Source of the DNA: Thiosocius teredinicola
GTDB lineage: Bacteria; Pseudomonadota; Gammaproteobacteria; Chromatiales; Chromatiaceae
Reading direction: 5' to 3'
Assembly (NCBI RefSeq): GCF_002009425.1
Contig: NZ_CP019936.1
Location: forward strand, 1,847,297 to 1,911,296
DNA length: 64,000 nt
In this document: piece after piece, positions 51,414 through 62,957 of the stretch
How positions within the stretch are numbered: position 1 is the first letter of the stretch
How the letters are laid out: each line of letters opens with the position of its first letter
The notes under the pieces: model-generated
The model's database searches: none
Told to the model about the DNA's origin: nothing
Seen by the model: the letters and a program-made list of their open reading frames with translations, nothing else
Made by a program: the position numbers and the translations under genes

Positions 51414-51926
51414 TCAGACGCCGCCGCTGTGGACGATCTCGTAGTACAGTTTTTCCAGTTCGGCTTTGTGTTCCGTTTCTTCATCTGCAAGAAATGCAAA
51501 CAGGTTGCGGATCGGGCCGGGCTCAGTGGTTTCCGACAGCTCCCGATACTGCTCCATCGCGGCATGCTCACGACCCAGGGCGTATTGCAGCACCGATTGG
51601 TCGTCGGGATTGTCTCCGAGGTCGGGCAGGTGGATGCAATCGGAGAATTTGGGATCCGACGCCGGTACGGCGATGTTGGCCTGGACCATCTCGTTGATGT
51701 CGTCGCGTTTCATCAGGTCGGTAAACAGGTCGACGTGACGCTGCTCTTCGACGGCGAGTTCATCGACCAGCCAGCGGATACGCTTGCTGACTTTGGGGGC
51801 CAGGCCGCTGTAGAAATCGCGCGCTGTGCGTTCGAACGAGATTGCGGTTTCCAACACCTCGCCGACTGTCGTGCTGGCACGCAACCGGTCTTTGCCGTGA
51901 ATGTGGCCTTCTGCGGGTTCGCTCAT
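51414..51926 (-). CDS. Rubrerythrin-like ferritin-family di-iron protein
   Basis: A 170-aa four-helix-bundle protein without a rubredoxin domain. Candidate di-iron ligands are in SFERTARDFY, VEEQRHVDLF, GREHAAMEQY and DEETEHKAELE, giving two E-x-x-H type helices. Rubrerythrins usually reduce peroxide. It is the last gene of the Mrp/complex-I-like operon: its ATG overlaps the flavoprotein stop (TGATG). The frame is open further upstream inside the flavoprotein gene, but the ATG at 51926 opens the conserved part. Confidence 0.85.
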   Translation of the reverse strand: MSEPAEGHIHGKDRLRASTTVGEVLETAISFERTARDFYSGLAPKVSKRIRWLVDELAVEEQRHVDLFTDLMKRDDINEMVQANIAVPASDPKFSDCIHLPDLGDNPDDQSVLQYALGREHAAMEQYRELSETTEPGPIRNLFAFLADEETEHKAELEKLYYEIVHSGGV

Positions 51927-53758
51927 CAGGCGGTCTCCTTCGCGGCGCTCGCGCCAAGAAATTGATGGATGCTGCGTGCCGTGCGATGGCCGTCGGCAAC
52001 CGCATGCACCACGTCCGGACCATGCACCATGTCGCCGGCAGCCCACAACCAGGACTCGGAGGTGCGGCAATCGTCGCCGACCTTGAGTCGGCCGCGATTC
52101 CATTCCAGCGCCTCGGTCAGTGCTTCGCCGAGCAGATCGGTATCGGTCATCTGGCCGATGGCCTCGATGACCATCTCGCCGTGGTGCAGTTGCTCGTCGT
52201 TCTCGTCGTACTTCGGCGCGAAGCGGTGTTGTTCGTCGAAGATCGATAGTACCCGCAGCGTGCGCAGACCGACCAAGTTGCCGTTCTCGACTACGCAGGC
52301 CTGTGGCCCGCGGCTGTCGAGAATCTCGATGCCTTCTTCGAGCGATTCGGAAACTTCGGCCGGATCGGCGAGGAAGTGCTCGAAATCTTCCAGTGCGCTG
52401 ACCGTGATCTTGACCTCGCCGTACTGCTTCTTCTGCAGGCGGGCGAGGGTGCGTGCGGCATCCATGGCGACGTTGCCGCCACCGATCACGACGGCCTGCT
52501 TCGGCAGGTCGAAGGTATCGAGATTGGTCACACGGCGCAGTACGTCGACCGCCTTCAATACGTTCGGATGATCAGAGCCGGGTATGCGTGTGGAGCGACC
52601 CAGTTGCAGACCGAGCGCGAGCATCACCGCGTCATGGTCGTTGCGCAACTGCTCCATCGTCACGTCGCGCCCGACCCAGGTGTTGCAGCGGATCTCGACG
52701 CCCATGGCCTGGATCACATCGATGTCGGCATCGAGCCGGTCGTAGGGCAGGCGGTATTCGGGGATGCCGTAGCGCGGCATGCCGCCCGGTTTGTCCAGGC
52801 CCTCGAACACGGTCACCGAGTGACCAAGGCGCGCCAAGTCATAAGCGGCAGTCAGGCCGGCCGGCCCCGAGCCGATGATCGCGACCTTGTATCCAGTGGA
52901 TGCCACGTCGGGCTTGCCGACGATGTCGCGTACCTGTTCGGGGGTGAAGGCATCCATCGCATAGCGCTTGAGCCAACGGATCGCGATCGGTTCGCCGCGC
53001 TTGCCGATCGAACAGGCCGTTTCGCAGCGGTGGGTGCACACGCGTCCGCAGGTATGGGCGAACGGGTTGGTGTTGTAGATCTGGCGCACCGCTTCTTCGA
53101 GGTCGTCCTGCCAGATCGCACGGATGTATTCGGGGGCGTCCATGTGCGTTGGGCAGGCCTCATGGCACATGCCGCACTGCACGCAACGCGAGGCCTCGAC
53201 GATCGCCTGCTGTTTGCTGTAGCCGGCGACGATCTCGGTGAAGTTGTCGATGCGCTCTTCGGCTGGCTTTTCGTCCATGTCCTGGCGCACCGGGTCGACC
53301 AGGTCGTTCTCCAGCGTCTTGTTCCAGCCCTCGCCGTAGTGCGCGTTATGGATACCGTTGGGATCGGGCAGGATGAAGTAGCTCGACAGCTGATCGTCGG
53401 TGCAGGTGTGTACGTATTCGCGCGACAGACTGATCGAACCGGTCGGGCACAGGTCGACACACAGTGCACACCAGCAGCAGCGGCCATAGTCGATTGCGGG
53501 GCGCAGATTGCGCACACCTTGAAGTGGGTCTTCCGGCAGCGACGGCACTTTGACCATCGTGATCGCCGCGTTGTCGCAGACCTTCTGGCAGGTCGAGCAG
53601 CCAACGCACTTTTCCCAATCATTGATATGGAAGCCTCGGTAGCGTAGCGAGGCCAGCCGGGGTTCGAGCGGCTCGGTGACGGCAGGTCGGCCGAAGAACG
53701 ACAGGCTCTTCAGCGGATTGAGCACGCTGCCGGCCTTTTTGTAGTCGATGTCGGACAT
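51926..53758 (-). CDS. Iron-sulfur/FAD NAD(P)H oxidoreductase, NuoI-like plus GltD-like fusion
   Basis: A 610-aa electron-input or output subunit of the membrane complex. An N-terminal ferredoxin domain binds two [4Fe-4S] clusters (C51, C54, C57, C61 and C94, C97, C100, C104). A GltD/NfnB-type domain adds eight cysteines (C192-C202 and C237-C249). The FAD site is GSGPAG at 296-301 and the NAD(P) site GGGNVA at 426-431. It replaces the separate NuoI and NADH dehydrogenase module of complex I. Its start overlaps the stop of the NuoD-like gene. Whether NADH, NADPH or ferredoxin is the partner cannot be read from the sequence. Confidence 0.85.
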   Translation of the reverse strand: MSDIDYKKAGSVLNPLKSLSFFGRPAVTEPLEPRLASLRYRGFHINDWEKCVGCSTCQKVCDNAAITMVKVPSLPEDPLQGVRNLRPAIDYGRCCWCALCVDLCPTGSISLSREYVHTCTDDQLSSYFILPDPNGIHNAHYGEGWNKTLENDLVDPVRQDMDEKPAEERIDNFTEIVAGYSKQQAIVEASRCVQCGMCHEACPTHMDAPEYIRAIWQDDLEEAVRQIYNTNPFAHTCGRVCTHRCETACSIGKRGEPIAIRWLKRYAMDAFTPEQVRDIVGKPDVASTGYKVAIIGSGPAGLTAAYDLARLGHSVTVFEGLDKPGGMPRYGIPEYRLPYDRLDADIDVIQAMGVEIRCNTWVGRDVTMEQLRNDHDAVMLALGLQLGRSTRIPGSDHPNVLKAVDVLRRVTNLDTFDLPKQAVVIGGGNVAMDAARTLARLQKKQYGEVKITVSALEDFEHFLADPAEVSESLEEGIEILDSRGPQACVVENGNLVGLRTLRVLSIFDEQHRFAPKYDENDEQLHHGEMVIEAIGQMTDTDLLGEALTEALEWNRGRLKVGDDCRTSESWLWAAGDMVHGPDVVHAVADGHRTARSIHQFLGASAAKETA

Positions 53759-54900
53759 CAGCGATCGACCTCCGGTGGGCAGGCATCAAGACTGAACATG
53801 ATTTGCGCGACGTCTTCGATGCGTGCGCCGGTCACCAGGTGTTCGAGCACCTGTACCGCATGCATCGATGATGGGCCGCGCACGTGCACGCGATAGGGTT
53901 TTTCGCTGCCGTCGGAAACAACATACCAACCGAGTTCACCCTTGGACGACTCGATGCGCACGTAGGTCTCGCCGGCCGGCACCTTCCACGCCAGCGGGTT
54001 GGGGATCGGTGCGCGGATCGGGCCTGCCACACCGGGCAGGCGTTCGACCACCTGGCGCAGGATGCGCACGCTCTGTTGCAGTTCGCCGCGCCGCACAAGA
54101 GTGCGCGCCCAGGCGTCGCCCGGCTCTTCGGTCGGGATGTCGAAATCGAGCTGGTCGTAGACCAGGTAGGGGTCGTCGCGCCGTACGTCGAACTTAAGGC
54201 CCGTGGCGCGCAGGTTCGGCCCGGTCACGCTCCATTCCAACGCCTGCGTCTGGCTGATCGGCCCGGTGCCCTTGGCGCGGGTAACGAACACGCGGTTGGT
54301 GAACAACAGGTTGTCGTAGTCGGGCAGACGCGAGTCGAGATAGTCGAGCGTGTCGCTCAAGCGTTGCAGGAAGCCGTCCGGCACATCGCGGCGCACACCG
54401 CCGGGAATGTTGTAGATGCTGTAGACACGACCGCCGGTCAGCTCTTCGAACAGGTCGAGGATCAGGTCGCGATCGGCCACACCCCAGAACATCGGGCTGT
54501 ACATACCGGTGGTCGCGGCGTGTCCGCCAAACGTGAACAGGTGTGCGGCGACACGCGAGAGTTCGAGTTGCAGCACGCGCAGCCACTGCGCACGCTCCGG
54601 TACATCCAGGCCACACAGCTGTTCGACCGCCATCGAGTAGGCAACTTCCATCGGCGCCGGGTCGGGCACACAGATGCGTGGTACCAGCGCGATGTTTTGA
54701 ATCCAAAGGCGCTGCTCCATGAGCTTTTCGAAGCCACGGTGCAGGTAGCCGCCATCGGCGCGTGCCGCGACGATCTCATCGCCATGCACTTTCACCTTGA
54801 GCGCGTAGTTGCCCTCGATACCCGGATGGTTCGGGCCGAAGTTGATCTCGAACTCGTTGCTCGGCGGGTGATTGCGCGCCTCGTAGTTCTCAGCTCTCAT
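53758..54900 (-). CDS. NuoD/hydrogenase-large-subunit-like protein lacking NiFe ligands
   Basis: A 380-aa homologue of NuoD and group 4 hydrogenase large subunits (PNHPGIEGNYALKVKVHGD, GYLHRGFEKLMEQR, TGPNLRATG). At the two places where hydrogenases have CxxC pairs this protein has RICVPD (C77 kept, second Cys replaced by Asp) and DACPPEVDR (C374 kept, second replaced by Glu). It therefore cannot bind a normal NiFe centre and belongs to the hydrogenase-related (Ehr/Mbs-like) or complex-I-like class. It overlaps the NuoC-like gene by 11 bases. Confidence 0.88.
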   Translation of the reverse strand: MRAENYEARNHPPSNEFEINFGPNHPGIEGNYALKVKVHGDEIVAARADGGYLHRGFEKLMEQRLWIQNIALVPRICVPDPAPMEVAYSMAVEQLCGLDVPERAQWLRVLQLELSRVAAHLFTFGGHAATTGMYSPMFWGVADRDLILDLFEELTGGRVYSIYNIPGGVRRDVPDGFLQRLSDTLDYLDSRLPDYDNLLFTNRVFVTRAKGTGPISQTQALEWSVTGPNLRATGLKFDVRRDDPYLVYDQLDFDIPTEEPGDAWARTLVRRGELQQSVRILRQVVERLPGVAGPIRAPIPNPLAWKVPAGETYVRIESSKGELGWYVVSDGSEKPYRVHVRGPSSMHAVQVLEHLVTGARIEDVAQIMFSLDACPPEVDR

Positions 54901-55486
54901 CGTCTGGCTCCTGCATGCCGCGACGGCTGAAGCGTTGTTCGTCGGGCGGGATCACGATGCCGCCGCCCTGCTGTTCGAGTTCGATCAGCCAGTCCGGCCG
55001 GTAGTTCTGCCAGTCGAAGTGGTCGTTGACCCAGGCCTCGCTGTCGAACTCCTTGCGCATCGGTGGTGGGCCGTCCCATTCGGTCAGGATGAACTTTTCC
55101 ATGTCCGGTGCGCCTTCGAAAAACACGCCGTACATCTCGTGGATGTCGCGCTCGAAGAAACCGGCCGGGTGGTAGATGTCGTAGACCGATACATAGACAC
55201 CGGGATCGCGTGCGATGCGCGTATGCACCGACACCAGCAGTTGCAACTCGTACGACCACAGGTGATAGACCAGCTCGAACTGGTCGTCGTCCGGCCAATC
55301 GACGCAGCTGATCGCCGACAGATGGACGAAGCCCGAGCGACCTTTGAGCAATTCGAGCAGGGCGGGCAGGGCATCGGGTTCGACATCCACCCGCGTGCGG
55401 CGATCGCCGCGCTTGCGCACGCGCACATCCTTGAACTCGCCGAGGATGATGCTCAGGCGTTCGACCGGCAGGTGGGTTTCGCTCAT
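54890..55486 (-). CDS. NuoC-like (30-kDa) subunit
   Basis: A 198-aa peripheral-arm subunit. The NuoC signature region ERDIHEMYGVFFEGAPD is followed by FILTEWDGPPPMRKEF. In complex I this protein scaffolds the NuoB and NuoD subunits. Its start overlaps the end of the NuoB-like gene as ATGA. The C-terminal tail beyond residue 165 is not conserved. Confidence 0.9.
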   Translation of the reverse strand: MSETHLPVERLSIILGEFKDVRVRKRGDRRTRVDVEPDALPALLELLKGRSGFVHLSAISCVDWPDDDQFELVYHLWSYELQLLVSVHTRIARDPGVYVSVYDIYHPAGFFERDIHEMYGVFFEGAPDMEKFILTEWDGPPPMRKEFDSEAWVNDHFDWQNYRPDWLIELEQQGGGIVIPPDEQRFSRRGMQEPDDES

Positions 55487-56220
55487 GGTTCCACCTTGTC
55501 CTTGCTATCGAGACCGAGACGCATCTCCAATGCCTCGAGCGGCTTTTGATGTTGCTGCAACAGCTTGGTGTGTTCACCCAAAGTCTCGTTGCTGAACAGA
55601 CCGTAGTGTTTCGCTTCGGCGATCACGTCGGTCGGTGTCTGCCAGGTCTCGCCGAACAACCGCTGCTGATGACCGAGGTAGTGATCGTAGCGTTGGTAGT
55701 AGTCCTGCCAGCCATTGGCCTCGCCGCGGCGGATGTTCTCCATCAGTTGGCGCAGCCCGGTGATCACCGCCTCGGGACGCGGCATGCAGCCGGCGATATA
55801 CAGGTCGACCGGCATATAGTCATTGAGCTTCTTCGCCGTGGCATACGACTGCCAATACATGCCGCCGTTGACGGTGCACGAGCAGATGCCGATCACGTAC
55901 TTGGGCGAGCCCATCTGTTCGTAGGTCAGGATCACGCGCTTGAGCGTTTTGACCGACACGTAGCCGGTGATCAGCAGGATGTCGGCCTGGCGTGGCGAGA
56001 CCATCGGCGAGATGCCCAGACGCTCCATGTCGAAGCGCGAGGTCATCGCCGGCGGCAGCTCGATCGCGCCGCAGCCGGTGCAATAGTGCAGGATGAACAG
56101 CGAGCGCGAACGACAGAACGCGGTCAGCTCGTCGAACACGCGCGCAAAGATGTTGCCGCTCCCGCCGGGTTGTTCGACCTTGACCGGGAACTGTTGATTG
56201 ACCAATTCGTTGTCGGACAT
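55483..56220 (-). CDS. NuoB/hydrogenase-small-subunit-like [4Fe-4S] protein
   Basis: A 245-aa subunit carrying the cluster next to the quinone or active site. The ligands are C47 and C50 in HYCTGCGAIELPP, a Cys in GICSCTVNGG and C145 in AGCMPRPE. The CxxC spacing of the first pair is that of energy-converting hydrogenases, not the tandem CC of complex I. A C-terminal extension of about 60 aa is unlike short MbhJ proteins. The gene starts 22 bp after the NuoH-like gene. Confidence 0.9.
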   Translation of the reverse strand: MSDNELVNQQFPVKVEQPGGSGNIFARVFDELTAFCRSRSLFILHYCTGCGAIELPPAMTSRFDMERLGISPMVSPRQADILLITGYVSVKTLKRVILTYEQMGSPKYVIGICSCTVNGGMYWQSYATAKKLNDYMPVDLYIAGCMPRPEAVITGLRQLMENIRRGEANGWQDYYQRYDHYLGHQQRLFGETWQTPTDVIAEAKHYGLFSNETLGEHTKLLQQHQKPLEALEMRLGLDSKDKVEP

Positions 56221-56242
56221 ACCTGCTTATTCCTCGTCGAAA

Positions 56243-57142
56243 TCAGTTGGTCACGAACACAAGACCGATCAGGCCCAAAATCACCGGCCATTTCCACAGC
56301 ATCGCCAACATGTCTTCGGTGCGGTAGCGGGGGAACAGAAACGCCAGTGACATCGGCACGACCAGCACGGCGAACGATTTGGCCAGGAAGGTGATCCAGT
56401 TTTCGCCGCCACCTAAGAACAGCGTCACGTACAACACGCTGGCGGTGTACAACTGGAAGCACTGCATCACGAACAGGCCGCCGAGAAACTTGCCGCCCAT
56501 CTCGACCATCGGACCGGTGGCGATCTCGGCAGGCGCAACATAGATCTCGAACGGTTGCTTGCCGAGCATGCCCTGCAGGGCGAACAGGCCTGCGAGCGCC
56601 AGCAGCGGCATCTGCACCGCACCCCAACTCTCGAAGCCGCCGGCCTGCTGTTGCGCGACCACGTCGACCAGGTTGGTGGTGCCGAAGTGCATCGCGACGC
56701 CTGCGATGACGATCACGAAAGGAATGTCGTAGGCGAGCATCGCGGTCAGCGCGCGCGAGATGCCGATCGAGCCGTTCGGGTTGGCGCACTGACCGACGCC
56801 CAGCGCCAGGCCGAGCGACGGGATCATCGTCAGGTACAGCAGGGTGATCATGCCGCCTTTCTCGGCGATGCCGTTCATGCCCGGCACCGGCAACAGGGTT
56901 TCGGCGGCCACGTAGCCGCCGACGGCCATGACGATACCGAAGTCGTGCAGCAGGCCATGCGAGGTCTGCGTCTTCTTACCAAACAGCTTGACGATGTCGT
57001 ACAGCGGTTGCAGCACCGGCGGGCCGACGCGTCGCTGCAGCTTGGCGGCGATCTTGCGCATCATCAGCACCATGAACAGGCCGACGATGAATGCCACCAG
57101 CGGCATCAGCACGAGTTCTGCGATCAGTTCAGCCCAATGCAT
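56243..57142 (-). CDS. NuoH-like membrane subunit
   Basis: A 299-aa integral membrane protein with about eight helices that links the peripheral arm to the antiporter-like subunits. The family blocks RRVGPPVLQPLYDIVKLFGK, SIGISRALTAMLAYDIPFV and VAPAEIATGPMVEMGGKFLG are present. The last two contain the conserved acidic residues of the E-channel. It overlaps the preceding antiporter-like gene by 14 bases. Confidence 0.92.
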   Translation of the reverse strand: MHWAELIAELVLMPLVAFIVGLFMVLMMRKIAAKLQRRVGPPVLQPLYDIVKLFGKKTQTSHGLLHDFGIVMAVGGYVAAETLLPVPGMNGIAEKGGMITLLYLTMIPSLGLALGVGQCANPNGSIGISRALTAMLAYDIPFVIVIAGVAMHFGTTNLVDVVAQQQAGGFESWGAVQMPLLALAGLFALQGMLGKQPFEIYVAPAEIATGPMVEMGGKFLGGLFVMQCFQLYTASVLYVTLFLGGGENWITFLAKSFAVLVVPMSLAFLFPRYRTEDMLAMLWKWPVILGLIGLVFVTN

Positions 57143-59006
57143 GCCACATCACCCATGTCACGATAAGCGTTGTACCGACCAGCACCCAAAGCGCCGGGTT
57201 GGCCTGTTCGAAGAATCCGCGCGCCGCGCTACTGGCGGCGCCGACCGCTGAAACCAGGGCCGATTCGGCCCACTCGAACGTGCCGCGATACCAGGGGCGG
57301 ATGCGGTGCATCAGCCCGGCGTAGAAGTTGTCGCTGTACTGGTAGCGCACGTCAGCGGTCAGGAAGTGGCCGCCGGCATAGTTGTCCAACTGGTGCACGC
57401 GCTTGGTCCGGCCACCCATCAGGTAGAACAGGATTGCGCCGATACCGAAGCCGGCGAACAACACGCCGGTGATCCAGATCATGTCGAGGCTGCCGGCCTT
57501 CGATTCGATACCGCCGAGCACGAACGCTACCGGCGTCAGCCCGATGGCTGCCTGCGCGTCGGCGATGTAGCCGAGCACCAGTCCCGGCATCACGCCGGTC
57601 ACGAACACCACGGTGCACAGCAGCATCATCGGTACCGTCATGCTCCACGGCGCCTCTTTGACGTATTCGTGTTCCAGGCGCAGCTGGCCGAGGAAGGTGT
57701 TGTGCAGCAGCTTGTACACACTCAGTACGGTGCCGAGCGTGCTGATCACACTGGCGACGAACAGCAGAGGCATACCCTCGGTCACCAGCGAGCGGTAGAC
57801 CATCCACTTGGAGACGAAGCCGTTCATCGGTGGCAGACCGGCGAGTCCGATGATGCCGATCAGCATCGCGAGGAAGGTCAGCGGCATGCGTGCGACCAGG
57901 CCGCCAAGGCGGTTCAGATCGGCAGTGCCGGTACGATGGATCACGGCAAACACGGCCATCAGCAAGATCGCCTGGTAGGTCGCGTAGTTGAACACGTGCA
58001 ACAGGCCGCCGGCACTGCCGAGGCTGTCGGTGATCATCAGGCCGAGCAGCATGTAACCGCCCTGGCCGACGCCGTGCCAGCTCAGCAGCAGGCGTGCATC
58101 GTTCTGCCGCATGGCAACGTAGGTCGGCAGGATCGCAGTGAACGCAGCGGCCCACAAAAGGATATCGCGCAGGTTGATGACATCGCGCCACAGCGAGAGC
58201 GAGGCGAAACCGTCGAGGCCGATCAGCTTCAACACCACCAGCCCGATCGCGAACAGCCCCATACGTGCCGAGATGGCACCGAGAAACGCCGAGGCAGGTC
58301 CCGGGCTGAAGGCGTAGGCGGGCGGTTGCCACAAGTGGAACGGCAGGATGGCCATTTTGACCGCGAAGCCAACGACGAACAGCAGCGTGATTGCCCACAA
58401 GGTGCCGGTCGACACAGACGCGATGGCCGCAGCGACCTCGGCATACTGCAGCGAGCCGGTCGCGCCCGCCGTCATGACCAGGCCGGCGAAGATCGCCATG
58501 CCGCCGGCGATCGCATAGATGATGTAACGGCGTGCTGCGAGCAATGCCTGGCCACCGCCGAGCAGCATCAGGATCAAGCCGGCCCAACTGGTCAGCTCCC
58601 AACCGATGAAAAGCGAGATCAGATCGCCGGCCGACAGCAACAGCAACATCGCCGTGACGTTGATCTGCAGGCCTGCGTACAGCCAACGCATGCTCAAGCC
58701 GGAGCCGGCATTGGTCGCACCCCATTCGCCGGCGGCGTAGGCGGCGCAAAAGCCGGCTATGCCGATCGTGATCATTGCGAAGAACCAGCCGAAGGCGCTG
58801 AGCTGCCAGCCGACGGGGTTGTCGAGCAGGTGGAAGGCAACGGCGCTCTGTGCACCGTCGGTACCCGGCGCAATTGAGAACAATAACGCGAACTGCAGGG
58901 CGTAGAGGGCGGTCAGCACCCAGCGCCCGAGTTGCTGACCAGCCAAGAGGCCGTTCAGAACGATCGCGATCGCCGCGACCGAGAGCAGCAGGTCCAGGTC
59001 ACTCAT
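57129..59006 (-). CDS. Second antiporter-like subunit (MrpA/MrpD/NuoL family)
   Basis: A 625-aa membrane protein with about 14 or more helices. It contains the proton/sodium antiporter domain (LISLFIGWELTSWAGLILM, GFAVKMAILPFHLWQPPAY, PPMNGFVSKWMVYRSLV) and a C-terminal extension. The Glu in GWEL and Lys in VKMAILP are the conserved channel residues. It follows mrpD with an ATGA overlap. In Mbh-like complexes such a second subunit sits between the Mrp module and NuoH. Confidence 0.9.
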   Translation of the reverse strand: MSDLDLLLSVAAIAIVLNGLLAGQQLGRWVLTALYALQFALLFSIAPGTDGAQSAVAFHLLDNPVGWQLSAFGWFFAMITIGIAGFCAAYAAGEWGATNAGSGLSMRWLYAGLQINVTAMLLLLSAGDLISLFIGWELTSWAGLILMLLGGGQALLAARRYIIYAIAGGMAIFAGLVMTAGATGSLQYAEVAAAIASVSTGTLWAITLLFVVGFAVKMAILPFHLWQPPAYAFSPGPASAFLGAISARMGLFAIGLVVLKLIGLDGFASLSLWRDVINLRDILLWAAAFTAILPTYVAMRQNDARLLLSWHGVGQGGYMLLGLMITDSLGSAGGLLHVFNYATYQAILLMAVFAVIHRTGTADLNRLGGLVARMPLTFLAMLIGIIGLAGLPPMNGFVSKWMVYRSLVTEGMPLLFVASVISTLGTVLSVYKLLHNTFLGQLRLEHEYVKEAPWSMTVPMMLLCTVVFVTGVMPGLVLGYIADAQAAIGLTPVAFVLGGIESKAGSLDMIWITGVLFAGFGIGAILFYLMGGRTKRVHQLDNYAGGHFLTADVRYQYSDNFYAGLMHRIRPWYRGTFEWAESALVSAVGAASSAARGFFEQANPALWVLVGTTLIVTWVMWHALG

Positions 59007-60463
59007 GGTTGCTTGACCTCCGGATCGGCCAGGACCGTTTCGATATAGGCATCGGTGTTTGCCGCGGTCTTGCCCATGTCACTCAGCGGCGGCCACAGCG
59101 GCATGACGAACAGCGCGGCACCGATCAAGGCCAGAGCGAACACGCCGGTCGAGGCCAGGTTGGCGAGGGAGTGTTTCATCGGCGGCGCTTCGCTGTCGGG
59201 CTTCGAGTACAGGGTGACGACCACCCTCAGCAGGTAGGCGCCTTCGATCACCGTGCCGATCAGAACGGCCGCCATCGCCATCAGCTGCAGCGGATCGCCT
59301 GCCGCAGCCAAGCCGGAAAGTACGAGAAACTTCGACCAGAAGCCCGGCAGCGGCGGAAAGCCCAGCAGGGACAAGGCGAACAACACGAACAGACCAGCCG
59401 CCAACTTGGAGCGGACGCCGGCGCCGCGCAGCGCCGCGATAGCACCGCCCCATTTGTCGGCGAGCAGGAACAGCGCCGATTTGACCACCAGGTGATGCAG
59501 GGCGACCACGATGCCCGCCACCACACCGGCCTCACCGGGCAGCGAGAAGGCGATGAACACGACGCCGAGTTGGCCGATCGACGACCAGGCCAGCATGCGT
59601 GTGACATCACGCGCCTGCAGCGCGGCCAGTTCGCCACTGATCACGCCGAGAATGCCGAGGATCAACAACAGCTGGCGCGTTTCCTCGTACGGAAAGACCA
59701 GCAGCAACACACGCACGATCACCAACACGGCCAGCTTGGATGCCAGCCCGGCGAGCAGCGCAGAGACGCGCTTACTGGCTGCAGCATACAGATCGGGTAC
59801 CCAGCCGTTGACCGGGAACAGCTCGGCCTTGACGCCGAAGCCGATCACCAGCATGGCGAACGCGGCGAGCCCCTGCGGGTTGGCGAGTTGGTCGCTCAGG
59901 CTTGCGAGATGGGCGAGGTTCAGGGTGCCGGTCGTGAAGTAGATCAGACCGATACCCAGCAGCGCGACAACCGAGCCGAGCGCGCTGATCAGCAGGTAGC
60001 GGAAGGCCGCAACGAAGCCTGCCGAGCTGCCGCTGCCCGCGGCGAGGCCATAAGATGCGACCGCGGCGAGTTCATAGAATACGTACATATTGAACAGATC
60101 GCCCGACAACGCCAAGCCGACCAGTGAGGCGACCAGCAGCAGGGTCAACGATTCGCGTCTGACGGCTTGTTCATCATTGATGCCGGGCCACAACAACAGC
60201 GTGGTGATCGGCACGGCCAACGCGAACAGCAGGGCCATGGTGTCGATATAAAACGCGATGCCGAGCGGCGGGGCGAAGTTGCCGAGCGCAACAACATAGG
60301 GTGTCTCAAGCGCGGTCCAGTTGAACGCGATAATGACCGCCGTGAGCGCCAACAGCACCGGGCCGAGCAGACGGCCGAGCCAACGCAGCGCGGGTTCTTT
60401 GAGCAGCGGCAACAGGAAGGCACCGAGCAGCGGCAGTGCAACTGCCAGCGTGATGTCAGTCAT
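59003..60463 (-). CDS. mrpD: MrpD-like antiporter subunit
   Basis: A 486-aa membrane protein of the MrpD/NuoN family. It has DLFNMYVFYELAAVASYGL, GVKAELFPVNGWVPDLYAAA and FPPLPGFWSKFLV, with conserved Glu and Lys in the transport path. The ATG at 60463 has a GGAG site and overlaps the end of mrpC by 8 bases. The longer frame to 60511 lies in mrpC. Confidence 0.92.
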   Translation of the reverse strand: MTDITLAVALPLLGAFLLPLLKEPALRWLGRLLGPVLLALTAVIIAFNWTALETPYVVALGNFAPPLGIAFYIDTMALLFALAVPITTLLLWPGINDEQAVRRESLTLLLVASLVGLALSGDLFNMYVFYELAAVASYGLAAGSGSSAGFVAAFRYLLISALGSVVALLGIGLIYFTTGTLNLAHLASLSDQLANPQGLAAFAMLVIGFGVKAELFPVNGWVPDLYAAASKRVSALLAGLASKLAVLVIVRVLLLVFPYEETRQLLLILGILGVISGELAALQARDVTRMLAWSSIGQLGVVFIAFSLPGEAGVVAGIVVALHHLVVKSALFLLADKWGGAIAALRGAGVRSKLAAGLFVLFALSLLGFPPLPGFWSKFLVLSGLAAAGDPLQLMAMAAVLIGTVIEGAYLLRVVVTLYSKPDSEAPPMKHSLANLASTGVFALALIGAALFVMPLWPPLSDMGKTAANTDAYIETVLADPEVKQP

Positions 60464-60923
60464 GCGCCACTCCTGCATTAACACCGACTGGTGGCGGCAA
60501 CGGGCGCTCACCGACCGGTCGTTCGTCGCTGGCCGACGGTTTCACACCGGCCTGCGCATCGAGTTCCTGCTGCATCATGCGGCGCGCCTCGCGCATGTCG
60601 AGCGTGCCGTAGCGTTGCTTGATGCGAATTACCAATGTCAGCGCCAACGCCTGCACGCCGACGCCGATCACGATCGCGGTCAACACCATGGCCTGCGGCA
60701 CCGGGTCGACCATGCTTTGGGTCGATGGCATGCCGGTGACGATCGGCGCCACTGCGTCCCAGCGGTAGCCGGCGAGTATCAGCAGCATGTTGGCGCCGGC
60801 CTCGGTGATCGCCAGTGCGAGCACCATGCGGAACATATGGTTGGACAGCACGATACCGGCGATACCGATGGTGACCAGGCCTATCGCGCCGATGAAAAAG
60901 ACCATGCCGATGGAGAGGCTCAT
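60456..60923 (-). CDS. mrpC: MrpC/NuoK-like subunit with hydrophilic tail
   Basis: A 155-aa protein with three helices in the first 105 residues (IGLVTIGIAGIVLSNHMFRM, ITEAGANMLLILAGY, AMVLTAIVIGVGVQALALTL). The tail, about 45 residues rich in Arg, Glu and Pro, is absent from ordinary MrpC of about 110 aa. It overlaps mrpB by 4 bases. Confidence 0.9.
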   Translation of the reverse strand: MSLSIGMVFFIGAIGLVTIGIAGIVLSNHMFRMVLALAITEAGANMLLILAGYRWDAVAPIVTGMPSTQSMVDPVPQAMVLTAIVIGVGVQALALTLVIRIKQRYGTLDMREARRMMQQELDAQAGVKPSASDERPVGERPLPPPVGVNAGVAHD

Positions 60924-61606
60924 GATGTCACCTCGTCGTCGCCGGCCAGTCGCATCAACAGGCTTGCCAGTTCCGAACCCACTTTGAGCCCGACGGCGAG
61001 GTACAGCAGCGGCAGACTGCCGCTCGACACCAGTTCACCGAGCACGCCTTTGTCGAACAGCGGTGTCAGAAATGCTTCGCCCTGCGCCAGGGCATACACG
61101 CCGATGCCGATGAAGGCGGCGCCGGCCAGGCCTTCGACGACCGACAACAGCGAATGATTCAACGACTCGCCGGGCCGGGCCAGCAACGGCAGGAAGAACG
61201 CGGCCGCCAGCACGACACCGCCCTGGAAGCCGCCACCCGGTGTCAGGTGGCCGTGGATCACGATATACAGACCGACCACCAAAAGCAGCGGAAACATCAG
61301 GTCGGCCCCGGTGCGCAGAATGAATCCGGATGCCTGCTTCGCCCGGCTATGTGCAGTGCCGAGCACCAGTCCGCCGGCAGTCGCGGCGGCAAACAGGATC
61401 GATAGCTCGCCCAGGGTATCGAGTCCGCGATAGCCGAGCACCACGGCGGTAACCAGATTGCCCGCGCCGACATTCTCGGGCGCGGCATAGCGAATGGCCT
61501 CACCGATCAGCATCGGCGGCTGACCGAAGTTCAGGCTGTTGGTGATCACCAGCAGCAGAAACGTGAGCCCGCCGAGGAACAATACGGTCGCAACGCTACG
61601 CATCAT
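60920..61606 (-). CDS. mrpB: MbhE-MrpB fusion subunit
   Basis: A 228-aa membrane protein in two parts. The first about 85 residues resemble MbhE and the tail of MrpA (NLVTAVVLGYRGLDTLGE). The second resembles MrpB/MnhB (TGADLMFPLLLVVGLYIVIH and HLTPGGGFQGGVVLAAAFFL). In archaeal Mbh these are two separate proteins. The start has two tandem ATG codons (61606 and 61603) behind a GGAG site. Confidence 0.88.
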   Translation of the reverse strand: MMRSVATVLFLGGLTFLLLVITNSLNFGQPPMLIGEAIRYAAPENVGAGNLVTAVVLGYRGLDTLGELSILFAAATAGGLVLGTAHSRAKQASGFILRTGADLMFPLLLVVGLYIVIHGHLTPGGGFQGGVVLAAAFFLPLLARPGESLNHSLLSVVEGLAGAAFIGIGVYALAQGEAFLTPLFDKGVLGELVSSGSLPLLYLAVGLKVGSELASLLMRLAGDDEVTS

Positions 61607-61898
61607 GTGACTCCGGGTCGGGCGTGGCGGGGTTGGATGATTCGGACAGCGTCGGCATCTGCAGCGAAACCAGACCCAGGCGGCGCAACGCCAGCACCAG
61701 GATCAGCCCGCTCAGGCCGGCACCGACCGCGGCCTCGGTCATCGCCACATCGGGTGCGCGCATCATGACGAACACGATCGCGACGCCGAGTGACACGACG
61801 GAGGCGGCAGCGACCGCGGCCAGCAGGTTGCGCAACACCATTACGGCAATCGCGGCAGACAGCGTAAGCACGACGACCGATGCGGCGATCCAGATCAT
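61596..61898 (-). CDS. MbhD-like (DUF4040) subunit
   Basis: A 100-aa membrane protein with three helices. The block FVMMRAPDVAMTEAAVGAGL is typical of the DUF4040/MbhD part of MrpA. This piece of MrpA is thus a free-standing protein here, as in membrane-bound hydrogenase-type operons. It overlaps mrpG by 4 and mrpB by 11 bases. Confidence 0.88.
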   Translation of the reverse strand: MIWIAASVVVLTLSAAIAVMVLRNLLAAVAAASVVSLGVAIVFVMMRAPDVAMTEAAVGAGLSGLILVLALRRLGLVSLQMPTLSESSNPATPDPESHDA

Positions 61899-62194
61899 GA
61901 CTCACTCCGTTCTTTCTTCCAGGCAATCACGCCGGCGTGCTGGAAGGCGCGTGCCAGCGATGACGAACCGATCGGGTTGGTCAGCAGGATGAAGATGCCG
62001 ACGATCAGCAGCTTGGCCCACCAATCCGGGTGATGCAGTCCGACACCGATCAGCAAAGAAAGCGAACCGAGCGTGACCGCCTTGGTGCCGGCCTGGATGC
62101 GGTTGTACACATCGGGCATACGCAGCAAGCCGAGTGCGCCGAGAAAGCAGAACACAGCGCCGATGATCAGAAACACGTCACCGATGATGCTCAT
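61895..62194 (-). CDS. mrpG: MrpG subunit
   Basis: A 99-aa protein with three helices of the MrpG/MnhG/PhaG family (FLGALGLLRMPDVYNRIQAG and TKAVTLGSLSLLIGVGL). The ATG at 62194 overlaps the mrpF stop. A longer frame lies within mrpF and is not coding. Confidence 0.92.
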   Translation of the reverse strand: MSIIGDVFLIIGAVFCFLGALGLLRMPDVYNRIQAGTKAVTLGSLSLLIGVGLHHPDWWAKLLIVGIFILLTNPIGSSSLARAFQHAGVIAWKKERSES

Positions 62195-62457
62195 GACTGT
62201 TTGGCCTCGATCACGCGGGCCAGCGCGACGACCCCGACAAAGGCGAGCACGCCGTACAGCAGGGCGACGTCGAGGTAGAACGGCGAATCGAACAGCATCG
62301 CGCAAACGACGATTGCCGCCGTGGCGATTACCGCCAGAGTATCTGTCGCGACGATGCGGTCCGGGGTATAGGGTCCGATCCACATTCGCACCAGGGCGAG
62401 CACTGCGGCAGCACTGAGCAGCGCCACCACGACAACATTAACCAGGTTAAGTGTCAT
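62191..62457 (-). CDS. mrpF: MrpF subunit
   Basis: An 88-aa protein with three helices of the MrpF/MnhF family: VRMWIGPYTPDRIVATDTLA, then DVALLYGVLAFVGVVALAR. The conserved P-DR-A-D motif is present. It is coupled to mrpE and mrpG through 4-base overlaps. Confidence 0.93.
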   Translation of the reverse strand: MTLNLVNVVVVALLSAAAVLALVRMWIGPYTPDRIVATDTLAVIATAAIVVCAMLFDSPFYLDVALLYGVLAFVGVVALARVIEAKQS

Positions 62458-62957
62458 TCCAGAAAGCCTCTCAGGTGGCGCTCGAAGTCACCGGCGATCG
62501 TCTGTGTCGCCGACTGCAGATCGGTGCCGGGCGGGCAGTCGATCCAGTGGATCGTCAATGTGTCGTCTTCGACGTCGACCGTCAGCGTGCCGGGGGTCAG
62601 GGTGATGCTGTTGGCCAGCACCAACCGCCCCAAATCCGAGCGTAACGAGGTCTTGATGTGCACTATTGCAGGGCGGATCGGTAGCGATGGCGACAACACA
62701 CGACGCGCCATGTCGATGTTTGCCCGAACCAACGACCAGGCCAATGCGAGTACATAGCGCGCGAAGGCGAGCGGCGCCATCGGGGTGAGGCGGATGCCGG
62801 CAAACACTGGCGCCCGGTTGGCTGCGAGCACGGCAACGGCGGCCGCGACCAGCACGCCTGCAATCAGTTCCTGTCGGGCCAATGTTCCGACCAGCAGCAG
62901 CCAGAACCCAAAAACCACGAAGAACGTCAGTAAGGAATGTCGAAGCTGTCGATACAT
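62454..62957 (-). CDS. mrpE: MrpE subunit, first recognised gene of the complex
   Basis: A 167-aa MrpE/MnhE-family membrane protein. Two or three N-terminal helices (LLTFFVVFGFWLLLVGTL, ELIAGVLVAAAVAVLAA) are followed by the cytoplasmic domain with ANSITLTPGTLTVDVEDDTL and a C-terminal amphipathic helix. The ATG at 62957 fits the family, and in-frame ATG 62999 is possible. The next thirteen genes follow with overlaps or very short gaps, indicating one transcript of about 11.5 kb. Confidence 0.9.
   Translation of the reverse strand: MYRQLRHSLLTFFVVFGFWLLLVGTLARQELIAGVLVAAAVAVLAANRAPVFAGIRLTPMAPLAFARYVLALAWSLVRANIDMARRVLSPSLPIRPAIVHIKTSLRSDLGRLVLANSITLTPGTLTVDVEDDTLTIHWIDCPPGTDLQSATQTIAGDFERHLRGFLE

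Follow-up and report, generated by a model that had tools for sequence, protein, structure and literature searches.

Previous data have shown that MBS of Pyrococcus furiosus, an archaeal sulfane reductase, works as a reductase with electrons from ferredoxin (PMC7684303). In this complex the quinone residues H38 and Y87 are lost, two of the four NiFe cysteines (C85 and C385) are kept, and the proximal [4Fe-4S] cluster has three cysteine ligands (C28, C93 and C123), because its CxxC loop is three residues shorter than in MBH; C25 and C85/C385 are dispensable for catalysis (PMC7684303). A 13-subunit homologue of MBS, named MBX, has been described in Thermotoga maritima (PMC9431562), and a 'putative Mrp-Mbx' of Endoriftia, the gammaproteobacterial symbiont of Riftia, is listed with function and direction unknown and, in the accessible part of that report, without subunit analysis (PMC11636981). 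Here we analyse a 14-gene operon of this kind in Thiosocius teredinicola. The window, a stretch of 64,000 nucleotides (positions 1,847,297 to 1,911,296 of contig NZ_CP019936.1), carries it on the minus strand, from position 62957 down to 51414. An initial annotation made from the letters alone had proposed an Mrp-type complex with a fused flavoprotein and had called it a poorly described system. The latter does not hold for MBS/MBX as a kind of complex, which was already known, at least from the available portions of the reports on T. maritima and the symbiont; the under-described part is the fused Nfn-like module.

All 14 open reading frames are present, and neighbouring genes overlap by 1–14 bases at 12 of the 13 junctions, as had been noted at the outset; the sole intergenic gap (22 bases) separates the NuoH-like and NuoB-like genes. 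Their best Pfam families, of which the weakest match is Rubrerythrin (E=2.8e-14), confirm the Mrp-type module and the NuoH/B/C/D-like subunits. Small corrections concern the gene starts, which are 62957, 62999 or 63020 for MrpE, 62194 for MrpG, and 60463, 60478 or 60511 for MrpD. The genes, all on the minus strand, are as follows.

62454..62957, minus: MrpE-like (MNHE, PF01899, E=3.8e-40), alternative starts 62999 and 63020
62191..62457, minus: MrpF-like (MrpF_PhaF, PF04066, E=1.5e-17)
61895..62194, minus: MrpG-like (PhaG_MnhG, PF03334, E=1.9e-26)
61596..61898, minus: MbhD-like (PF13244, E=6.5e-19)
60920..61606, minus: MnhB-like (PF04039, E=1.9e-24)
60456..60923, minus: MrpC/NuoK-like (Oxidored_q2, PF00420, E=5.7e-21)
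59003..60463, minus: MrpD/MbsH-like antiporter-type pump subunit (Proton_antipo_M; 6u8y_H, 204.6 bits), starts 60463, 60478 or 60511
57129..59006, minus: MbsH'-like (NuoL/M-like) second pump subunit (Proton_antipo_M; 6u8y_X, 161.8 bits)
56243..57142, minus: NuoH/MbsM-like membrane anchor (NADHdh, PF00146, E=8.3e-50)
55483..56220, minus: NuoB/MbsJ-like subunit with the proximal [4Fe-4S] site (Oxidored_q6; 6u8y_J, 221.5 bits; motif CTGCGAIE)
54890..55486, minus: NuoC/MbsK-like (Complex1_30kDa, PF00329, E=4.5e-28)
53758..54900, minus: NuoD/MbsL-like large subunit, no NiFe site (Complex1_49kDa; 6u8y_L, 402.6 bits)
51926..53758, minus: 610-residue NuoI-GltD fusion (Fer4_20 + Pyr_redox_2; NF010590, 816.9 bits, residues 11-602)
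51414..51926, minus: ferritin-like protein (rubrerythrin family, PF02915, E=2.8e-14) with EExxH motifs, the operon's last gene

When compared with chains of solved structures, the subunits pointed to MBS (6u8y). The large subunit matched MbsL with 402.6 bits, Thermus Nqo4 with 269.4 and MbhL with 130.0, i.e. a lead of 133 bits; the NuoB-like subunit led by 102 bits with MbsJ (221.5, next chain 119.1). The MrpD-like pump subunit was closest to MbsH (204.6 bits, next 136.1), the second pump subunit to MbsH' (161.8, next 118.2), and residues 6-127 of the fusion to MbsN (76.7, next a NuoI-type chain with 47.0). An Mrp-type arm with two pump subunits (H and H') and homologues of M, J, K, L and N are thus all found in one operon. 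In a maximum-likelihood tree of the large subunit, 30 MBX rows formed a clade with MbsL (support 100/99), separate from complex I (four rows, 95/90) and from HycE paired with MbhL (100/99); the NuoB tree gave the same grouping, with MbsJ beside MBX, at lower support (90/95), and both trees carry a long-branch warning. Neither subunit fell inside complex I, which was the nearest group after MBS.

The motifs agree with this placement. In the large subunit (GPNHPGIEG, RICVPDP, DACPPEVDR), the equivalents of His38 and Tyr87 of Nqo4 are Glu and Val, the latter in a motif, RICVPDP, close to that of MbsL. Only one cysteine of each hydrogenase CxxC pair is kept, and therefore there is no NiFe site, in agreement with what had been read from the sequence initially; as then proposed, some other redox reaction would be the one coupled. 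The NuoB-like subunit (CTGCGAIE, SCTVNGG, GCMPRPE) has the three proximal-cluster cysteines and a shortened CTGC loop with the spacing of MbsJ rather than the vicinal CC of complex I. With small changes this pattern recurs in other gammaproteobacterial, spirochaetal, thermotogal and Izimaplasma rows; the rows of Thermotogota and Izimaplasma retain a His at position H38. Judged by its sequence, the complex is a bacterial MBX, a relative of the archaeal MBS. It shares an Mrp-derived membrane arm with Mbh, but has only two of the four NiFe cysteines, and an Mbh/group 4 NiFe hydrogenase was rejected on this ground. A stand-alone Mrp Na+/H+ antiporter was rejected too, as the redox genes stand in the same string of overlapping genes. 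One feature departs from MBS at the proximal cluster itself: an extra cysteine beside the C93 equivalent (ICSC, 55876-55884), which the main gammaproteobacterial clade has in 16 of its 17 NuoB rows and which is absent from the rows of Thermotogota, Spirochaetota, Izimaplasma and a second subtype.

Another difference from MBS lies in the fused gene. The MbsN of P. furiosus is a protein of 208 residues, while here the N-like part (residues 6-127, two [4Fe-4S] sites) continues into some 450 residues of an Nfn-type flavoprotein, an NfnL/GltD-like part (residues ~160-606) with FAD, two further [4Fe-4S] sites and a predicted NAD(H) site. The 16 cysteines of the four [4Fe-4S]-type patterns are conserved in 33-34 of 34 loci, which bears out the initial count of up to four clusters in a 610-residue flavoprotein. 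The match to NF010590 (816.9 bits) lies below the curated cut-off of 946; T. maritima exceeds the cut-off, and the other 13 control genomes had no match at E<=1e-100. The fused protein is 50% and 47% identical to those of two Thermotogota (L015 and L017, respectively) and 70-71% identical to those of other tubeworm symbionts. An AlphaFold2 model built on a 39-row alignment (pLDDT 88.1, pTM 0.85) is predicted to share its fold with NfnI, Nfn-ABC, Stn, GltD and DPD chains, best with the NfnI L chain over ~480 aligned columns.

To these fold relatives the GltD part is alike in FAD and two [4Fe-4S] sites, and we compared its residues with five Nfn-type chains: 4ylf (T. maritima Nfn), 5vj7, 9bov (an Nfn-ABC chain by structure match), 8oh5 and 9n5u. 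Position 237 is Cys in all 39 MBX rows and in 4ylf (T. maritima NfnB), Thr in 5vj7 and Ile/Leu in the other three; with C237 the second cluster has four cysteines to draw on. Position 264 is Lys in all 39 rows, Glu in 4ylf and 5vj7, and Lys in 9bov, 8oh5 and 9n5u (Nfn-ABC/Stn). Either residue alone does not set MBX apart, but the pair occurs in none of the five chains. In Nfn, a pair of conserved arginines holds the additional phosphate that NADP carries (PMC6405883). The YRR motif is found in all five Nfn-type chains but is absent from the window fusion and from 32 of 34 loci, where an insertion and A/S/C-L/M-E or Q take its place (Glu457 in 38 of 39 rows); L055 and L057 keep it. Acidic residues at this place are typical of NAD(H) sites. 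The loss of YRR together with an acidic residue there predicts NADH as the cofactor of the fused module. R336, which is invariant in the 39 rows, corresponds, in an alignment counted by hand, to Arg187 of T. maritima NfnB at the FAD N5. Two marks of the Nfn bifurcating transhydrogenase are thus missing, as there is no NfnS partner among the 14 genes and no YRR arginine pair in the fusion.

A ferritin-like gene, a further difference from MBS, gave a match together with the fused gene in 27 of the 29 proteobacterial loci, the exceptions being L012 and L055. No such match was seen in L014, L017 and L021, which have downstream sequence and are not known Pseudomonadota. Iron is lost oxidatively from the proximal cluster of MBS (PMC7684303). 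From this loss and the distribution of the gene, we infer that the ferritin-like protein may protect the proximal cluster from O2 or peroxide.

We also found the second subtype of MBX mentioned above. Four loci (L013, L043, L055, L057) form a separate clade in the tree, and four others from outside the Gammaproteobacteria (L068-L071) were assigned to it by motif. These loci have no separate match to the MrpD-like gene. Their NuoB-like motif is GTGC and their large subunit ends in YPPE(I/V)ER; MbsJ C25 and MbsL C385 thus have no counterpart in these natural variants, whereas C28, C93 and C123 do. This fits the published finding that catalysis by MBS does not depend on C25 and C85/C385 (PMC7684303). 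L055 (genome G233) and L057 (G264) have a GltD part with the canonical YRR and without the insertion; they are possibly a separate fusion or an NADPH-specific form.

The initial annotation had considered the combination unusual in Gammaproteobacteria. It is indeed rare, since the fused gene (E<=1e-100) was found in 17 of the 369 genomes of our class sample, yet these belong to 15 families and all 17 have a dsrA match. In the same sample 117 genomes had a dsrA match at E<=1e-60, 112 of them over the cut-off; the chance of a match in 17 of 17 carriers is p=1.4e-9, uncorrected for kinship. Sixteen of the carriers were over the cut-off, the dsrA of G264 being a contig-edge fragment under it. A phylum sample of 299 genomes yielded five further carriers outside the class, all five with dsrA; this count omits the window's own genome and G593, whose match (344.6 bits, residues 198-607 only) was not taken as MBX and which has no dsrA match. 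Two dsrA matches each were seen in carriers G319, G350, G218 and G448.

The search for the same gene order that had been suggested with the annotation was carried out, and the order from MrpE to GltD recurs in loci of Pseudomonadota, Thermotogota, Izimaplasma and Spirochaetota wherever the contig is long enough. The thermotogal loci L015 and L017 have the same order with the fused gene last; unlike the window, L017 has no adjacent ferritin-like gene, and these rows keep the His at the H38 position. In L009, L011 and L019 (Thiotrichaceae, Thiomargarita) the genes for the fusion and for the ferritin-like protein are separated from most of the remaining subunit genes, and in L011 and L019 the only other MBX gene seen is NuoH-like. 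In L072 (G640, one of the five extra carriers) the NuoI-like and GltD-like parts are in two frames, reflecting a split or a frame break.

Other genes were compared in 80 of the 117 dsrA-positive genomes, namely the 17 carriers and 63 of the 100 non-carriers, picked in list order among genomes at least 95% complete. PFOR was found in 10/17 carriers and 20/63 non-carriers (p=0.051), rnfC in 15/17 and 47/63 (p=0.33), and PhaC_N, a marker of storage polymer whose model is not known to catch class III synthases, in 3/17 and 6/63 (p=0.39). nifH was rejected as an explanation of the distribution (5/17 vs 37/369, p=0.020; among dsrA-positive genomes 5/17 vs 16/117, p=0.056) and is at most a weak side association.

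With the family, the motifs, the gene order and the dsrA association observed directly, we lean, with little more than even confidence, towards a reversible, ion-pumping NADH:sulfane-sulfur oxidoreductase, whose substrate, direction, cofactor and coupling ion are deduced from these features. NADH would deliver two electrons to the FAD of the GltD part. They would then travel via the two [4Fe-4S] clusters of this part and both clusters of the fused MbsN part, and reach the proximal cluster in the NuoB/MbsJ-like subunit; there the S-S bond of a polysulfide or persulfide would be cut. The NuoH-like anchor and the two antiporter-type subunits would convert the redox energy into export of H+ or Na+. 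The most likely use would be anaerobic disposal of NADH onto stored sulfur; driven in reverse by the ion gradient, the complex could make NADH from sulfide. Calculated with generally known potentials, the step from NADH to S0 yields ~13-38 kJ per two electrons (10 mM to 10 μM sulfide), or roughly 1-2.5 ions at 160 mV. This small energy drop would place the enzyme near equilibrium, so that it could run backwards. Of the partners proposed initially, polysulfide with NAD(P)H is favoured by the motifs, while quinone is not, the head-group residues of complex I being absent; free ferredoxin becomes less likely in view of the covalent Nfn-like nicotinamide site and of rnfC in 15 of 17 carriers.

Published data favour reduction as the direction. 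MBS, whose activity has been characterised, works as a reductase with ferredoxin as donor (PMC7684303), and mbxA of T. maritima is up 4.36-fold on S0 (PMC9431562). Mrp-Mbx of the Riftia symbiont has expression neighbours in common with the reductive tricarboxylic acid (rTCA) cycle, and so have globule proteins and both hydrogenases, which also supports reduction, most sulfur-oxidation genes going with the Calvin-Benson-Bassham (CBB) cycle instead (PMC11636981). Beggiatoaceae reduce stored sulfur in anoxia, with storage polymers and presumably H2 (PMC4959497). More tentatively, and with considerable doubt on our part, the complex might be the enzyme still lacking for the anaerobic respiration of stored sulfur by Dsr-type sulfur bacteria, namely an NADH-driven sulfane reductase in which a covalently attached Nfn-like module has taken the place of ferredoxin and whose direction can be switched. 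The second cysteine at the proximal cluster, added in the gammaproteobacterial line, would then form a pair like that of ferredoxin:thioredoxin reductase, cutting protein-bound or low-molecular persulfides; sulfide would be made in the dark or without oxygen, and NADH would be drawn from sulfide when the cell is energized.

Several points weigh against an NADH-dependent sulfane reductase. We found no activity measurement for a GltD-fused MBX in the literature searched, and in the T. maritima work the donor assigned to MBX is ferredoxin rather than NADH (PMC9431562). Such bacteria have other candidate enzymes for sulfur reduction: psr/phs genes (polysulfide/thiosulfate reductase) are up under anoxia in a different symbiont (PMC8269255), and for the Riftia symbiont sreABC is listed along with MBX (PMC11636981). 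The association with dsrA does not separate sulfur reduction from sulfide oxidation. The extra ICSC cysteine could close the presumed open iron site of the proximal cluster, and chiefly for this reason the active sites of MBX and MBS should not be taken as equivalent without caution. R336 matches the arginine at the FAD N5 that has been associated with bifurcation in Nfn, and its retention would allow for an involvement of ferredoxin or for bifurcation. Finally, NADPH may serve L055 and L057, which keep YRR.

We consider it rather unlikely that the complex normally runs uphill, with the ion gradient driving the reduction of NAD+ by sulfide or persulfide in the service of CO2 fixation and the quinone pool being by-passed. 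Such a role would fit the dsrA match in 17/17 carriers of the class sample, the low cost of the step (13-38 kJ per two electrons) and the fact that complex I relatives are reversible. It fits poorly with the gene set in Thermotogota (L015, L017), which are generally regarded as fermenters, with MBS working as a reductase (PMC7684303) and with Mrp-Mbx of the Riftia symbiont having its expression neighbours in common with the rTCA cycle, whereas most sulfur-oxidation genes go with the CBB cycle (PMC11636981). The kept arginine at the FAD N5, the predicted best fold match of the GltD part (the NfnI L chain) and the somewhat commoner PFOR in carriers (10/17 vs 20/63, p=0.051) would agree with ferredoxin as a second partner, i.e. 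with an Nfn-like FAD that bifurcates or confurcates among NADH, ferredoxin and sulfane sulfur, and ferredoxin is what the T. maritima authors assume as donor (PMC9431562). However, there is no NfnS-like subunit among the 14 genes, and the fused MbsN domain would fill the predicted docking site of ferredoxin on Nfn, close to the distal cluster (PMC6405883), so that we find this distinctly unlikely.

A plain ion-translocating ferredoxin:NAD(P)+ oxidoreductase, with a role like that of Rnf, was proposed in the older Mbx literature, where P. furiosus Mbx was assigned as a ferredoxin:NADP oxidoreductase (cited in PMC6349859). It is highly improbable to our mind, because it would leave the proximal-cluster cavity without a substrate, because 15/17 carriers already have rnfC (vs 47/63 dsrA-positive non-carriers), and because MBS was later shown to reduce sulfane sulfur (PMC7684303). 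We give equally little credence to a variant complex I, an NADH:quinone oxidoreductase with the GltD module in place of NuoEFG. Complex I is the nearest group after MBS, the host's own complex I implies a quinone pool, and the His at the H38 position persists in the Thermotogota and Izimaplasma rows; but the large subunit here has Glu and Val for His38 and Tyr87 of Nqo4, the proximal-cluster loop has the MbsJ spacing without the vicinal CC, and the same gene set occurs in Thermotogota, held to lack quinones (partly after PMC9431562). No NuoEFG input module was found among the 14 genes.

The host genome is a single contig of 4.79 Mb. It encodes a second, ordinary NuoD elsewhere, and the MBX-type complex is therefore additional to complex I. 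It also has matches to PFOR, nifH, dsrA and, three times, rnfC (1456475, 1491017 and 3610502), one of these lying ~15 kb from nifH (1506927). Promoter and terminator scans gave matches no more frequent than in shuffled sequence, and plasmid searches gave nothing at 60% identity or more. Beyond the 14 genes, the 40 largest groups of neighbours were mostly shadow frames of operon genes; by eye no sulfur gene was seen among these frames, on which no Pfam search was run.

A GltD fusion of MBX was not described in the full texts searched, and no mention was found there of a predicted NADH site, a ferritin-like companion, the extra cysteine or a dsrA association of MBX, subscription papers being mostly outside reach. 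The Solemya velum symbiont has an 'MrpEFGBBCDD' set listed as an antiporter (PMC4287430). Its order is that of the membrane half of the present operon, so it may be half of an MBX-type operon whose redox half was overlooked; in that case the complex goes unrecognised in annotation. For the reduction of stored sulfur in Beggiatoaceae no enzyme is named in the accessible text (PMC4959497), and in the available part of the work on another symbiont only psr/phs-type genes are proposed (PMC8269255). The dsrA-linked, NADH-fused MBX is a further concrete candidate for this reaction. The prediction of NADH rather than ferredoxin as donor opposes the published scheme for T. maritima (PMC9431562), and the fusion would represent another way for a complex I-type core to gain a nicotinamide module.

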